Assembly: GCF_016102285.1 (NCBI RefSeq)
Contig: NZ_JACFOY010000001.1
Coordinates: 744,001-808,000 of the forward strand
Source of the DNA: Bartonella sp. M0177
Lineage (GTDB): Bacteria; Pseudomonadota; Alphaproteobacteria; Rhizobiales; Rhizobiaceae
DNA: 64,000 bases
Reading direction: 5' to 3'
A program made the translations under genes and the position numbers. Below are positions 52,784-57,807 of the stretch, in pieces (position 1 is the first letter of the stretch; each line of letters opens with the position of its first letter). A model generated the notes under the pieces. The model did not search any database, was not told the DNA's origin, and saw only the letters and a list, made by a program, of their open reading frames with translations.

Positions 52784-53335
52784 TTATTCTTTGGGTAATG
52801 AATTATAGGCGTCTTTCAAACCATTGAGATCAATCATACCGCCAACGCCTTCTTCAGGTGTCGTGAATATGAAATAGGTTGCCATTTTCCCTTCAAGAAA
52901 CGATTTGAGATCGTCATCTTTCAGGAATGCTTCTGCCACGCAATTGTCGCCGAGGCAGCGCCGATATTCCATTTTGCCCATGTCTTTATTATCAATCTTG
53001 ATGCCCACACCCAGACGCAGTTCAACCCGGATCGGTACAAAGACACGCATAAGTGTTCCCTGATTCTTCGGCAGCTTATAAAGCGTTACACGAAAAGCAA
53101 TATCCGGCCGGTTTTGCGCACGCACATTTTGTACAACTTCACATTGAACATTCGGGGTCCCCGGCGGCAAAGAACAGACTTTTGTCCATGCTCCAAAAGT
53201 TTTCGGAGCAGGTACATCCTGCTGGTTTGGTGCCTGCTGGTTTTGTGCCTGTGCTAAAGCAAGACAAAGTCCCATTATGGAAACTGAATACGCGGCAACG
53301 CCACAAGCTCGTTTGAAGAATTGACGAAGTGACAT
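52784..53335 (-). CDS. Invasion-associated locus B (IalB) family protein
   Basis: A 183-residue exported protein with a signal peptide ending near ALAQAQ, then a Gln-rich stretch and the IalB domain: APKTFGAWTKVCS and YRRCLGDNCVAEAFL, with conserved paired cysteines. IalB in Bartonella contributes to erythrocyte invasion, but the family is widespread in Rhizobiales, including non-pathogens. ATG 53335 has AGGAG upstream. It is divergent from the CtaD-like gene; the 276-base gap, 53336-53611, is where ctaC would be expected in relatives. Confidence 0.85.
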   Translation of the reverse strand: MSLRQFFKRACGVAAYSVSIMGLCLALAQAQNQQAPNQQDVPAPKTFGAWTKVCSLPPGTPNVQCEVVQNVRAQNRPDIAFRVTLYKLPKNQGTLMRVFVPIRVELRLGVGIKIDNKDMGKMEYRRCLGDNCVAEAFLKDDDLKSFLEGKMATYFIFTTPEEGVGGMIDLNGLKDAYNSLPKE

Positions 53336-53611
53336 GGAAACTCCTGCTCGAATCATCATGACGTTATCGCGCTTCAGCCTTTGTGAAAAGTGCCCAAGAG
53401 CTCTAGAACATAAACCATACACAACTGAAATAACATAGTGTTCAATTCTTGGGCGAGAACATGGCAAAAACTGGAAAATTTGACAAAATTGTCGTAAAGC
53501 TGTTTCTATTTGGGGCTGTTTGTCGCATTGTTTTGATATTGAAATGTTGTTAAAGCAATGAAAAAGAGGTTCCGCAATCAACAGATTGCTTGATATTATT
53601 TGGCAAAATTG

Positions 53612-55090
53612 ATGTCTGAACACGTAAAAAGAAGTTTTTTTTCTTCGATATTAAATCCGGATAGCAAAACTATTGGCACCCTCTATCTGGTGCTTGCTAT
53701 TGTTGCCGGTGTTATCGGGGCAATATTTTCGTTTGTTTTGCGTCTGGCTTTGAACGGTACGAGTCTGGCTTTCCTTCCGGTTTCTTTGTCCGGTGACCCC
53801 GTCCTGTTGTCGTTCATGAACACTGCCCACGCGCTCATTCTCGTGTTCTTTATGGTTATGCCGGCTCTGGTTGGCGGTTTTGCCAACTGGTTTATCCCGT
53901 TAATGATCGGCACTCATAATGTCGCATTTCCCCGCGCAAATTTGTTGGCCTTCTTACTTTTGCCTCTCACAATTGTTTTGGGCTTTATGGCGCTTTTATC
54001 ACTCGGCAATGAAAGCCACTTCAAGTTTTTAATGTTGACAAGCGTTTTTGTCGGCTCGATTTCATTCATAATCAGTTTTGTCAATTTTATTACGACAATT
54101 ATTACAATGCGTGCCCCCGGCCTTACACTTTCACGTTTGCCGGTGTTTGTATGGTCTGTACTTGTGTCCTCTTTTCTGGGGCTGGTTTCGGTGCCTGCAA
54201 TGCTTGCTGCTTTGACCGAATTGATATTCAGTGGCTCTGCCACTTTCGGACAGCTATCGATGATGGTGTGGTTTTTCAGCCACCCGCAAATCTATGTTCT
54301 TTTATTGCCAGCGTTCGGAATTGTCAGTGAAATATTGGTGACTTTCTGCAAACGTCGTCTGTGGATGGAAAATGCTGTGATTGCGGCGATGGTATTTATC
54401 GGTGCGATCAGTCTGGTTCTCTGGATGAACGATCTCTTCCAATTCGAAAAACCCGAGATCATGGGGCATTATTTCAAAGTTGCACTGCCTTTCGTCGTTT
54501 TGCCAACAGCGTTTATCCTCTTGAGCTGGCTGGTCACATTGTTAAAAAGCCGGTTTGAATTCGAAACGCCGATGCTCTGGGCAATGGGCTTTGTCTTTAT
54601 CGTCCTGATGGGGCAAATTTCAGCGCTGCAACTTGTAGCCACCGGTAATGCCAAGAACCAATGGAACCAGTCCGCCTTTGTCGCCCATTTCCATTACATT
54701 CTGTCTTTAAGTGCAGTCTTTGCCATTTTTGCCGGCTGGTACTACTGGTTACCAAAAATGACGGGCTATGTTTGCCGCAAATCCACAATGCAAGTGCACT
54801 TCTGGTCATTGTTTATCGGCGTTAACGCGATTTTCCTGCCTCAACATCTCAACCAACTGAGCGGTGGAATTATCTTTAACCAGAATGCGCTAGGCGTTTC
54901 ATCGTCTCTCGGGGCGCTTCTCGCTGCTCTCTCGGTTGCTGTTTTTCTTTTTGGTTTGGCTGAAACCTTCATTATGAAACGGAAAGCACAAGATAATCCG
55001 TGGGGCGAGGGGGCTTTGACATTGGAATGGCAATTGCCGTCACCGCCAAACAAAGATGTCTGGGAAAAAGTGCCCGTTATTACAAAATAA
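53612..55090 (+). CDS. Catalytically degenerate cytochrome c oxidase subunit I homologue
   Basis: A 492-residue, 12-helix protein clearly related to aa3-type subunit I (SKTIGTLYLVLAIVAG; FVAHFHYILSLSAVFAIFAG). Retained: haem ligands His 73, 359 and 361, and His 224/Tyr 228 of helix VI. Lost compared with the usual enzyme: both CuB histidines (now Asn 273 and Asp 274), helix-VI Glu (Gln 226), D-channel Asp (Asn 103), K-channel Lys (Ile 302), Mg-site His-Asp (Trp 351, Asn 352), and the Arg pair (Ile 421, Phe 422). It cannot be expected to reduce oxygen or pump protons. The frame is intact, and loops are shorter than in typical subunit I (over 520 residues). ATG 53612 is chosen over TTG 53600. 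Confidence 0.9.
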   Translation: MSEHVKRSFFSSILNPDSKTIGTLYLVLAIVAGVIGAIFSFVLRLALNGTSLAFLPVSLSGDPVLLSFMNTAHALILVFFMVMPALVGGFANWFIPLMIGTHNVAFPRANLLAFLLLPLTIVLGFMALLSLGNESHFKFLMLTSVFVGSISFIISFVNFITTIITMRAPGLTLSRLPVFVWSVLVSSFLGLVSVPAMLAALTELIFSGSATFGQLSMMVWFFSHPQIYVLLLPAFGIVSEILVTFCKRRLWMENAVIAAMVFIGAISLVLWMNDLFQFEKPEIMGHYFKVALPFVVLPTAFILLSWLVTLLKSRFEFETPMLWAMGFVFIVLMGQISALQLVATGNAKNQWNQSAFVAHFHYILSLSAVFAIFAGWYYWLPKMTGYVCRKSTMQVHFWSLFIGVNAIFLPQHLNQLSGGIIFNQNALGVSSSLGALLAALSVAVFLFGLAETFIMKRKAQDNPWGEGALTLEWQLPSPPNKDVWEKVPVITK

Positions 55091-55650
55091 CGAGATCATA
55101 TTATAGCGAAATCATATTCATATTGTATGGTCGACTAGATCGACAATTTTGTACGGTCTACTATCCGGACGATTGCTGGCATTCTGATACAAGGGGGGGC
55201 TTTGGCGAAGAGTGAACATTGTCACTTCCCCATGAGATGTCACCACTCCTCAAGAATTGCAGGGTGCTGCAATTCTGGCTGAACATACTGTTCGACCCGA
55301 AATAGGCAAATGCTCTTAAAATCCACTCGTTAAAACTATATTCCTAAGGTTTTTCGCGTTCAGTGCCTCTCTGTCAACCAATGATCATTTCATTGAAATG
55401 GCGAGTTCCAAATAAAAATTCTCGAAAATTTATCGTATTTTCGTGATTTATCAGATTGGTTCACAAAAGTGCGAGCGAATAACGGCGTGAAGAAATTTAT
55501 GCCCATATATCAATAAACAAATTTACGGTTGGTTTTTTTGCTAATATAGTTTCTATAGAAAGGGTTTATTTTGGCTGTTAAAAAACAGATGATATGCAAG
55601 TTGATTTACAAAGTGTAGCCTGAAAAGGTGCGTAATAGAACGGTTTATAT
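55091..55650. other. Gap between the CtaD-like gene and ctaB
   Basis: In most Rhizobiales ctaD and ctaB are nearly adjacent, yet here 560 bases separate them with no gene I can support. A GTCGA/TCGAC inverted repeat lies near 55130-55144. The last 100 bases probably hold a separate ctaB promoter. It may contain remains of an earlier insertion. Confidence 0.5.
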
Positions 55651-56595
55651 ATGTCTATATCAAAGCAAGAATCGCCTCAACCGCATATGCCGATTGCTTC
55701 TCCGGCCGATGCGAATGACTATATAATTCTGTTAAAACCGCGGGTGATGTCACTTGTGGTCTTTACAGCTCTTGTCGGCATGATGGTTGCTCCCGAACCT
55801 ATCAATCCGGTTTTAGGCTTTGTTGCGATTTTATGTATTGCTGTTGGCGGCGGAGCATCCGGTGCTTTGAATATGTGGTATGATGCCGATATTGATGCCA
55901 TCATGAAGCGCACCAGAAAACGTCCGATACCTGCTGGCAAGGTAACTGGCGGAGAAGTGCTGGTTTTCGGGCTTGTGCTTTCTGCCTTGTCAGTATTCAC
56001 AATGGGCATTTTCATTAACTGGTTTTCGGCCGCATTCCTTGCCTTTACAATATTCTTTTATGTTGTGATTTATACAATGTGGCTGAAACGTTCGACACCG
56101 CAAAACATTGTTATTGGCGGTGCCGCCGGTGCTTTCCCTCCTATGATCGGATGGGCCGCAGCAACAGGCACAATCAGTATCGAGAGCGTTATATTATTCC
56201 TCATCATATTTATGTGGACCCCGCCGCATTTCTGGGCACTTTCGCTTTTTGTCACGACCGATTACGGAGAAGCGCATATCCCTATGATGCCTAATGTGAA
56301 GGGTGAACGGTCGACCAAAAATCAGATATTGGTATACGCAATTCTGATGGCTCTTTGCGGTATCGCGCCTTATTTTTTAAGTTTTGCAGGCATCACTTAT
56401 GGAATTTTGTCAACGATTTTAGGTGTTATTTTTATCTATTATTCTTACGAGCTTTGGAAAACCGAACAACGTGAGCAAACAGTGGCAAAGGCAAAGAAAT
56501 TGTTTTTCTTTTCGCTAATCTATCTCGCGGCTCTCTTTGCTATATTACTCGTAGAATCGCTGGCTACTCGCCTCATAAGCTATTTGGGAGCGTGA
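55651..56595 (+). CDS. ctaB: Protohaem IX farnesyltransferase (haem O synthase)
   Basis: A 314-residue membrane prenyltransferase that turns haem B into haem O. The signature [21 protein letters not shown] near residue 75 gives the metal-binding Asp residues, and [12 protein letters not shown] near residue 190 the second. Eight or nine helices. AAAAGGTG lies upstream. It survives although the adjacent subunit I is degenerate, so haem O is probably used by another oxidase (such as cytochrome bo) encoded elsewhere. Confidence 0.95.
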
Positions 56596-56597
56596 CA

Positions 56598-56744
56598 ATG
56601 GACGAGCAAAAGCATCTTGACCAGATTGCACTTACAGAAATTCAAAAAAAAGCTCAGCGCCATCGGGCAAAAGGTTTGGCTATAGCACTTTTCCTATTCG
56701 TTCTTCTTGTATATGCAGCCACAATGGCGCATGTGAGTGCCTGA
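56598..56744 (+). CDS. CtaF-like small membrane protein (cytochrome oxidase locus)
   Basis: A 48-residue frame starting 3 bases after the ctaB stop: a charged N-terminus (MDEQKHLDQIALTEIQ), an Arg/Lys-rich turn and one C-terminal helix (LAIALFLFVLLVYAATMA). Size, layout and position match the CtaF (CoxF) protein that sits between ctaB and ctaG in Rhizobiales cox operons. Role unknown even in relatives. Here ctaG and ctaE do not follow; ispH starts 44 bases later. Confidence 0.75.
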   Translation: MDEQKHLDQIALTEIQKKAQRHRAKGLAIALFLFVLLVYAATMAHVSA

Positions 56745-56787: not shown

Positions 56788-57807
56788 ATGATATCGAAAC
56801 CACCATTAACAATTCGCCTCTGCGGACCGCGCGGCTTTTGTGCCGGTGTCGACAGAGCAATACAGATCGTCATTCTCGCTTTGAAAAAATATGGTGCGCC
56901 GGTCTATGTGCGTCATGAAATTGTGCATAATCGCTATGTTGTAGAAGGCCTGCAGGCGCGGGGCGCAATTTTTGTTGAAGAGCTTGATGAAATACCAGCG
57001 GAACATCATAACCAACCGGTTATTTTTTCAGCCCACGGTGTACCGAAATCGGTACCTGAAACTGCACGATTGCAAAATCTTTTTTATCTTGATGCAACCT
57101 GTCCGCTGGTTTCAAAAGTGCATAAACAGGCTATGCGTCACCAGCGCAACGGGCGTCATGTCATTCTGATTGGCCATTCCGGTCATCCCGAAGTTATCGG
57201 GACTATGGGGCAGGTTGACCCGGGAACTGTAACTTTGATTGAAAATGTCGAAGATGCCGAAAATTATCAGCCATTGCCCGGTCAAAAACTCGGATTTGTC
57301 AGCCAGACAACTTTGTCTGTGGAAGATACGGCGGAAATTATCGCTGTATTGAAACGGCGGTTCCCCGATATTGAACCACCGGCAGCTGAATCGATTTGCT
57401 ATGCAACGACCAATCGTCAGGAGGCTGTAAGAGCGGCCGCTCCCGGCAGTGACCTGTTTTTGATTGTCGGTGCTCCGAATTCGTCAAATTCCCGCCGTCT
57501 GGTCGAAGTCGCAGAACGGTTTGGTGCCAAACGTTCTTTGCTTGTGCAACGCGCATCCGAAATAGACTTTGATCATTTGGATAATGTCCATACGGTCAGT
57601 CTTTCTGCCGGCGCATCGGCACCGGAAATAATTGTTGATGAAATCATTGCTGCGTTCAGAAAACGTTATGATGTCACTATAGAAATTGCAGAGACTGCGG
57701 TTGAAAATGAAACCTTTTTGGTCAACAGGGAATTGCGGGAAGTCGTGTTGACGCCGGAAGATATGGAATTTGTCAATGGCAAAGGGATTCCCGATAAAGA
57801 CAAGTGA
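56788..57807 (+). CDS. ispH: 4-hydroxy-3-methylbut-2-enyl diphosphate reductase
   Basis: A 339-residue iron-sulfur enzyme, last step of the MEP pathway, producing IPP and DMAPP. Three cluster-binding cysteines are in GFCAGVDRAI (Cys 18), DATCPLVSKVH and ICYATTNRQEAV. HEIVHNRYVVEGL near residue 45 and SAGASAPEIIVDEII near the C-terminus are conserved. It is first of an ispH-thrB-rnhA run that normally follows the cox operon in Rhizobiales. Confidence 0.97.
   Translation: MISKPPLTIRLCGPRGFCAGVDRAIQIVILALKKYGAPVYVRHEIVHNRYVVEGLQARGAIFVEELDEIPAEHHNQPVIFSAHGVPKSVPETARLQNLFYLDATCPLVSKVHKQAMRHQRNGRHVILIGHSGHPEVIGTMGQVDPGTVTLIENVEDAENYQPLPGQKLGFVSQTTLSVEDTAEIIAVLKRRFPDIEPPAAESICYATTNRQEAVRAAAPGSDLFLIVGAPNSSNSRRLVEVAERFGAKRSLLVQRASEIDFDHLDNVHTVSLSAGASAPEIIVDEIIAAFRKRYDVTIEIAETAVENETFLVNRELREVVLTPEDMEFVNGKGIPDKDK

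Follow-up and report, generated by a model that had tools for sequence, protein, structure and literature searches.

An orphan CoxA/CtaD homologue lacking the tandem CuB histidines is under purifying selection in a subset of Bartonella

Main finding

Few proteins of aerobic life are, to our knowledge, as conserved as subunit I of cytochrome oxidase, and genomes as a rule either keep it intact or have lost it. In this study, an orphan homologue of subunit I, designated coxA*, was analysed in the window, which is a whole stretch of 64,000 nucleotides from a 2.6 Mb Bartonella genome (G000, contig C1, 744001-808000). The gene very probably encodes a non-catalytic protein that is retained by selection. 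Judged from sequence, the product (CoxA*) would most likely be a copper-free, haem-binding Cox1 pseudo-enzyme that still makes use of the CtaB/CoxF branch of Cox1 assembly. CoxA* cannot be an O2 reductase of any known type, because the CuB site and the K-channel lysine are absent from the sequence, and CoxB and the copper chaperone were not found in the genome. What remains of the enzyme is its low-spin-haem half together with H276 (P. denitrificans numbering).

Materials and methods

Orthologues were searched across 71 genomes of the genus Bartonella. Outside Bartonella, 199 sampled family members were covered, followed by re-examination of 28 chosen genomes. Residues were mapped by alignment to P. 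denitrificans subunit I (1ar1) and 10 intact alphaproteobacterial CtaD controls; the haem and CuB numbering and the residue roles, which we take to be the customary ones, were overlaid on the computed alignment. The residues assigned to the haem a and a3/CuB pockets are presumably those of the bovine contact lists. Maximum-likelihood codon models included 14 Bartonella taxa for ispH and thrB, 13 for cyoB (none found in G253) and 13 for ctaB (G212 dropped). A profile of the small CoxF-like protein combined the sequences of 11 carriers with that of a single intact relative. The structure of CoxA* was modelled with AlphaFold2 from 36 sequences, intact relatives among them.

Frame, family and predicted fold

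The coxA* frame (53612-55090, plus strand) translates into 492 amino acids with zero internal stops, and an in-frame TTG at 53600 is a possible alternative start that would add 4 amino acids. The features within the gene are as follows.

53612..55090, plus strand: coxA*, orphan CoxA/CtaD homologue of 492 aa with the tandem CuB ligands lost (translation, Pfam, NCBIfam and alignment)
53828..53830, plus strand: codon of H73 (= H94, an axial ligand of the low-spin haem), conserved in 18 of 19 orphans
54281..54283, plus strand: codon of H224 (= H276, the sole CuB histidine retained), kept in 18 of 19
54428..54433, plus strand: codons of N273-D274 at the site of the tandem CuB pair H325-H326, which is absent in 19 of 19
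54515..54517, plus strand: codon of I302, replacing the K-channel lysine K354, lost in 19 of 19
54686..54694, plus strand: codons of H359-F-H361 (= H411/H413, haem a3 and haem a axial ligands), H411 kept in 17 and H413 in 18 of 19

The protein belongs to the Pfam COX1 superfamily (PF00115; 245.3 bits against a gathering cut-off of 34.8) and lies far below the cut-off of the NCBIfam equivalog CtaD_CoxA (TIGR02891; 327.3 against 670.75 bits). By these profile scores, coxA* is a relative of CtaD/CoxA and not an equivalog. Its protein identity is 96% to B. apihabitans BBC0178 and 77-78% to B. apis and B. choladocola, all three of which are honey-bee gut bacteria. A sequencing error or a chance open frame was ruled out by the 14 Bartonella frames, which extend down to 48-50% identity.

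The AlphaFold2 model contained 12 long helices, with a mean pLDDT of 78.9 and a pTM of 0.85; confidence was low in residues 1-8, 50-60, 209-217 and 346-351. The 50 PDB matches listed by Foldseek were cytochrome oxidase or respiratory supercomplex entries, with TM scores (query) of 0.76-0.85. The model is compatible with the subunit I fold rather than a demonstration of folding, since the alignment held intact relatives.

Residues kept and lost

The original prediction, made from the sequence alone, described a subunit I frame with its haem ligands and with His 224 and Tyr 228, and the alignment bore this out: H73, H359, H361, H224 and Y228 correspond to H94, H411, H413, H276 and Y280. The window protein thus carries the bis-histidine pair of the low-spin haem and the axial histidine of haem a3 (H73, H359 and H361), and one of the three CuB histidines of an aa3 subunit I (H276). 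The replacements proposed for the window protein were likewise located, namely, N273/D274 at H325/H326, I302 at K354, N103 at D124, Q226 at the helix-VI E278, and W351/N352 at the Mg-site pair H403/D404. For the arginine pair of the haem propionates, the absence of arginine held, whereas its exact placement on I421/F422 did not, as the site lies in or adjoining an alignment gap. The statement that every catalytic and proton-channel position had changed was too strong: many sites are lost, but the equivalents of R54, N131, S291 and T351 are retained, and position 278 is mostly glutamate among the orphans. The conserved loop with W164 (GW-T-YPPLS type) is also deleted in coxA*, a loss that had not been named. 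CuB histidines were not recovered elsewhere in the protein by profile alignment, multiple alignment or pairwise tblastn, and the agreement of these approaches excludes histidines hidden by misalignment.

Across the 19 orphans found in this study, the tandem pair and K354 are lost in 19/19 and kept in 10/10 intact controls, which retain every residue compared at these sites. The residues kept among the orphans are H94 (18), H413 (18), R54 (18), H276 (18) and H411 (17). The Mg-site pair is intact in 0/19, with D404 alone remaining aspartate in two. Position E278 is E in 13, Q in five (B. apihabitans-like sequences) and G in one; Y280 is replaced by F in four; and D124 is D in three and N in 16. 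In 80 related GTDB loci, the tandem histidines are kept in 73. The loss is not a matter of chance, because the seven exceptions are the seven Bartonella loci.

All three haem-iron histidines are kept in the 17 orphans outside genus g7. Within g7, G111 lacks H411, and G006 lacks all haem-iron histidines and stops short of the C-terminal motif. We read these sequences as decaying genes in which the haem ligands and the C-terminal motif are going. The two frames are still long, at 442 aa in G006 (L191, 7927-9255) and 527 aa in G111 (L190, 7253-8836).

Among the 17 orphans, 74 of 282 canonical-invariant columns are fully retained, all three iron ligands included; the hypergeometric chance of the three ligands all falling in the retained set is 0.018, which is suggestive only. 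Retention of canonical-invariant residues is high in TM1 (0.80), TM2 (0.83), TM6 (0.80), TM10 (0.62), TM11 (0.70) and the C-terminus (0.77), and low in TM3-5 (0.39-0.49), TM7-9 (0.34-0.48) and TM12 (0.40). Identity to the intact consensus is 0.52 in the haem a pocket, 0.28 in the a3/CuB pocket and 0.47 over all invariant columns. By this measure, the contrast reflects a depletion of the a3/CuB pocket and not an enrichment of the haem a pocket.

Distribution and phylogeny

A coxA* orthologue was detected in 14 of the 71 Bartonella genomes (E <= 1.7e-139), including B. apihabitans BBC0178, B. choladocola BBC0122, B. apis PEB0122 and B. tamiae Th239. The remaining 57 gave CyoB-type matches alone (E no better than 5.8e-59), and no remnant of coxA* was found in their 57 corresponding loci at E <= 0.01. 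Five further orphans were found in three other genera: G026 and G126 (3.5-3.6 Mb), G072 (1.9 Mb), and G111 and G006 of genus g7. A profile of 12 orphans was compared with 394 genomes of the family; six genomes besides that of the window scored clearly above the background of intact CtaD, all of them known carriers, and the g7 genomes G006 and G307 scored within that background.

In the phylogenetic tree, a branch with 100/100 support separates the 19 orphans from 30 intact CtaD rows. The end branches of coxA* are long (up to 3), and the long branches meet at the orphan/intact split. The tree is consistent with a single origin of the 19 orphans, with the long branches joining there. The distribution indicates that coxA* is dispensable over evolution, being absent in 57 Bartonella genomes and apparently decaying in genus g7.

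Selection on coxA*

The frame is intact in 14/14 Bartonella carriers, and the maximum-likelihood omega over these taxa (485 codons) is 0.110, far from the value near 1 expected of a pseudogene. In seven close pairs, dN/dS ranges from 0.075 to 0.156; synonymous sites are saturated between the more distant carriers. The corresponding omega values are 0.040 for cyoB, 0.052 for ctaB, 0.042 for ispH and 0.052 for thrB. Purifying selection on coxA* is clear, yet looser than on these four genes. A second, normal ctaD was sought in the window genome and not found, the sole other COX1 member being CyoB. Retention by selection for another role, as originally proposed, agrees with the intact orthologues, the low omega, the lack of a normal ctaD and the unrecovered CuB histidines. 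On these sequence data, coxA* is not a pseudogene.

Gene neighbourhood and the CoxF-like protein

The order of genes in the window is tldD and an IalB-like gene (both on the minus strand), followed by coxA*, ctaB, coxF, ispH, thrB and rnhA. The neighbouring genes are as follows.

52784..53335, minus strand: IalB-domain gene, divergent neighbour (start chosen at 53335; longest ORF to 53623)
55651..56595, plus strand: ctaB, haem O synthase, next downstream gene in 19/19 carriers (family profile matches and gene-order comparison)
56598..56744, plus strand: coxF-like small protein of 48 aa with one apparent membrane span (profile search)
56788..57807, plus strand: gene that we take to be ispH, right-hand flank in 19/19 carriers (gene order)

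The order coxA*-ctaB-ispH-thrB-rnhA is shared by all 19 carriers, and tldD and IalB lie at the left of coxA* in 16 (exceptions G026, G126 and G111). Between coxA* and ctaB lie 216-566 bp in 16 of the 19 carriers, the 14 Bartonella among them; the corresponding distances in G072, G111 and G006 are -39, 10 and 47 bp, respectively. In the window, this non-coding gap is about 560 bp (55091-55650) and could contain a promoter serving ctaB separately, or relics of genes that have been lost. In 57/57 non-carrier loci, the IalB-like gene adjoins ctaB at a distance of 385-555 bp. In four intact relatives (G013, G024, G049 and G162), CtaG and SURF1 are encoded about 2-5 kb downstream of ctaD; neither was found in the coxA* cluster of the carriers. 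In the Rhizobium locus L040, a putative coxB-like ORF (by inspection) ends directly before coxA. In G072, a gene a few kb from coxA* (L189, 15761-16957) encodes a protein that we take by resemblance to be like NnrS, another haem-copper membrane protein. The ctaB of B. choladocola BBC0122 (G212:C1:808860-809800, L146) consists of two overlapping frames, which cover query 1-202 and 190-314, owing to a frameshift or a sequencing error.

The CoxF profile scored 69-101 bits in 19/19 carriers, 11 of which are in the profile, and no CoxF-like protein was found in the 57 non-carrier Bartonella loci (profile <= 9.5 bits). CoxF appears tied to CoxA*, since ctaB gave a match in all 71 Bartonella genomes searched and coxF accompanies coxA*; the link is weaker than the counts of 19 and 57 suggest, because joint loss in the 57 non-carriers may be one event. 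CoxF is not a universal or fixed companion of CoxA, as the profile gave 61 to 15 bits in seven of 12 intact loci and missed it in the other five (<= 10 bits). The CoxF of Rhizobium L040 resembles two assembly families below their cut-offs, namely, Pfam Coa3_cc (E 0.0013; 18.7 bits against 27) and the small assembly family NCBIfam cyt_ox_assem_30 (20.7 bits against 27.5). The window CoxF has no Pfam match, and neither Coa3_cc nor cyt_ox_assem_30 was found in it at E <= 1.

Upstream element

Two blocks upstream of coxA* are invariant in the same 14 Bartonella carriers.

53461..53468, plus strand: ATGGCAAA, second invariant block (upstream alignment)
53518..53533, plus strand: GTTTGTCGCATTGTTT, 16 bp, invariant in 14/14 Bartonella carriers, probable regulatory site, 93-118 bp before the coxA* start

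Over the whole upstream region, the window and B. tamiae agree at 114 of 180 positions, and the length of the 16-bp invariant run was reached in 0/20000 column shuffles. The 13-bp core of GTTTGTCGCATTGTTT occurs 36 times in 300 loci, once in each of the 36 loci with a Bartonella coxA* and nowhere else. The first 13 bp are absent (<= 1 mismatch) from 57/57 non-carrier loci, and the element was not found in the five carriers outside Bartonella. GTTTGTCGCATTGTTT is a probable regulatory site of coxA*. Both the element and the CoxF-like partner lend further support to the view that the coxA* protein is made. The possibility that the element is part of the divergent IalB-like gene was rejected, as that gene lies by ctaB in 57/57 non-carrier loci and the 13-bp core occurs in none of them. 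RegA is not claimed as the binder; a single half-site (GTCGC) of its published consensus, as given in the available part of PMC5435760, fits the element.

Respiratory and cofactor context

The window genome holds one COX2 match, which adjoins cyoB, so a CoxB partner of an aa3 oxidase was not found, nor was a normal cytochrome c oxidase. One COX2 is present in 18/19 carriers: in 17 it adjoins cyoB, and in G254 it lies on a different contig; neither COX2 nor cyoB was found in G253 (86% complete). A second COX2 was not found in any of the 19 carrier genomes, 18 of which yielded CyoB as their sole COX1 protein besides CoxA* (none in G253).

CtaG/Cox11 delivers CuB. It was found in 4/4 intact controls, in 0/19 carriers and in 0/6 other genomes (four non-carrier Bartonella, G005 and G307). 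CtaA was present in 26 of 28 genomes searched, carriers or not, including all four non-carriers tested, and SURF1 in 29/29, non-carriers included. Both are uninformative on CoxA* because non-carriers also have them. In G241, a genome of the window's species, ctaA is split into two overlapping pieces (G241:C3:839594-840554). Haem A can probably be made in these cells, perhaps for the quinol oxidase. A ba3 quinol oxidase is described for P. denitrificans in the available part of PMC7464135, and an oxidase of this type may by analogy explain the presence of CtaA. Non-carriers keep ctaB (and ctaA in the four tested), so CoxA* is not needed for making haem O or haem A there. The lost CuB copper supply and the retained supply of farnesylated haem fit a protein without CuB but with haem ligands.

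Cytochrome c1 of the bc1 complex was detected in 22 of 29 genomes, the window genome included, although its sole COX2 adjoins cyoB. It is present in 13/14 Bartonella carriers and in G026, G126, G072 and G006, and was not found in G258 and G111. The non-carriers G236 and G203 show this same combination, having cytochrome c1 without CoxA*, and the non-carriers G205 and G200 have no cytochrome c1. Seven stretches of the window genome match cytochrome c.

Discussion

The best overall explanation, which we hold at about an even chance, is that CoxA* is a leftover aa3 subunit I turned into a copper-free, single-subunit haem membrane protein involved in haem handling. That CoxA* binds haem is likely, and the presence of the three haem-iron histidines in 17/17 orphans outside g7 speaks for a haem protein rather than a pure scaffold. 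The haem-handling role itself is more tentative; the exact role, whether haem handling, redox or gas sensing, or relay, is what we infer from the sequences. In the proposed course of events, the ancestral aa3 cytochrome c oxidase would have been lost, and subunit I would have remained and become CoxA*. New CoxA* would go into the membrane and be handled by the old early-assembly partners, with CtaB supplying farnesylated haem and CoxF acting as a Coa3-like chaperone. The low-spin haem would be taken up between TM1, 2 and 10, and a second haem could be carried on H359. Assembly would end where Cox1 normally waits for copper, and no O2 reduction would follow. CoxA* would then be a haem-loaded partner, as a reservoir or stabiliser, of the machinery that makes and inserts haem O/A for the quinol oxidase still present.

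Next most likely, though itself rather unlikely, is a membrane sensor of redox state or of gas (O2, NO or CO), in which a low-spin haem is joined by a five-coordinate haem on H359; with no copper there to finish the reaction, a ligand would be bound and the signal passed on through a partner. Such a sensor would account for the a3 axial histidine in 17/19 orphans and for H276 in 18/19 although catalysis is impossible, and the upstream element suggests regulated expression. The protein has no output domain, however, no regulator was seen adjoining coxA*, the residues of the a3 pocket are mostly gone (0.28 identity, on the contact list that we presume), and G111 and G006 lack H411. Less probable still is a role as an electron relay or peroxidatic cytochrome. 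This protein would be fed by the bc1/cytochrome c branch, to which the searches could assign no oxidase; cytochrome c1 accompanies CoxA* in 13/14 Bartonella carriers and in G026, G126, G072 and G006 while the sole COX2 goes with cyoB, and the seven cytochrome c stretches of the window genome point the same way. Against it stand G236 and G203, which have cytochrome c1 without CoxA*, the lack of CoxB/CuA as an electron entry, and the loss of the propionate arginine pair and the Mg site.

There is a slim chance that CoxA* joins CyoA/C/D in a quinol oxidase, either inactive or modified, by which respiration would be tuned. The orphans derive from CtaD, share about 35-38% identity with CyoB and are relaxed in TM3-5 and TM7-9, all of which argue against such a hybrid, even though CyoB is the only other COX1 protein in 18/19 carriers (none found in G253) and orphan CcoN subunits of P. 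aeruginosa make hybrid complexes according to the available part of PMC10790758. The least probable reading, already contradicted by the data, is a slowly dying gene, that is, a relaxed remnant of the lost oxidase that escaped stops by chance. An omega above that of the neighbours, the clear decay in G006 and G111, and the lack of any trace in 57 non-carrier Bartonella loci are what such a remnant would leave; an omega of 0.11 (though synonymous sites are saturated between distant carriers), a frame intact in 14/14 Bartonella carriers, the invariant upstream element and CoxF speak against it.

If the preferred reading of a haem membrane protein holds, and the chances are evenly balanced, CoxA* would represent a new membrane cytochrome, copper-free and single-subunit, that arose from subunit I as its copper and proton machinery was lost, with a Coa3-like partner and haem O synthase, present in part of Bartonella and three sister genera and acting as a haem-based sensor or haem carrier. 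The preservation of so well known a subunit after the loss of cytochrome c oxidase suggests that it has taken on a new function. A dead but selected subunit I is a natural test of what the low-spin-haem half does alone. It likewise tests the cooperation of Cox1 with CtaB and a Coa3/CoxF-like chaperone at the stages preceding copper insertion. In respiration, it also sets the Bartonella group with B. apis, its bee-associated relatives and B. tamiae apart from the remaining Bartonella covered here. Annotations and metabolic models may list genes of this type under cytochrome c oxidase, which calls for caution.

Comparison with known systems

No description of a CuB-less orphan CoxA was found in the open full-text literature among the best-ranked matches listed (titles and abstract starts). 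The available part of PMC12661939 mentions cytochrome c oxidase genes of one Tokpelaia genome in general terms, the text of PMC9145763 contains zero occurrences of Bartonella, Rhizobi, CoxF or Coa3, and Coa3 is not linked to bacteria in the available part of PMC3334569. CoxA* is filed here as a pseudo-enzyme of a known superfamily and not as a cytochrome c oxidase.

With subunit I of the aa3 oxidases (CoxA/CtaD; P. denitrificans 1ar1 and R. sphaeroides 1m56), CoxA* has in common the predicted 12-helix fold, the haem-iron histidines, H276 and the NPWGEG-TLEWQL-SPP tail; it differs in lacking the tandem CuB pair, the K-channel lysine, the D-channel aspartate, the Mg pair, the propionate arginine pair and the W164 loop, and neither a second COX2 nor CtaG was found in its genome. 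Subunit I of the bo3/ba3 quinol oxidases (CyoB) belongs to the same superfamily, occurs in the same genomes and is presumed to be the working oxidase; unlike CoxA*, to which it is 35-38% identical, CyoB of the window genome keeps the tandem histidines (GHHFF) and a COX2 partner. NorB is a superfamily member with an altered non-haem metal site. Its FeB site consists of three histidines and a glutamate, and CoxA* has a single one of the three histidines. Like CoxA*, CcoN3 and CcoN4 of P. aeruginosa are encoded by subunit I genes without operon partners; in functional hybrid oxidases they take the place of the usual subunit, as the available part of PMC10790758 describes, whereas CoxA* has no copper site. 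In mitochondria, Coa3 is among the earliest proteins to bind new Cox1, and Cox1 is held at an early stage with the single-span chaperones Coa3 and Cox14 (PMC7582755, in the part available). The CoxF of L040 weakly matches Coa3_cc and the window CoxF has no Pfam match; for CoxA*, in contrast to mitochondrial Cox1, this early stage would be the final one.
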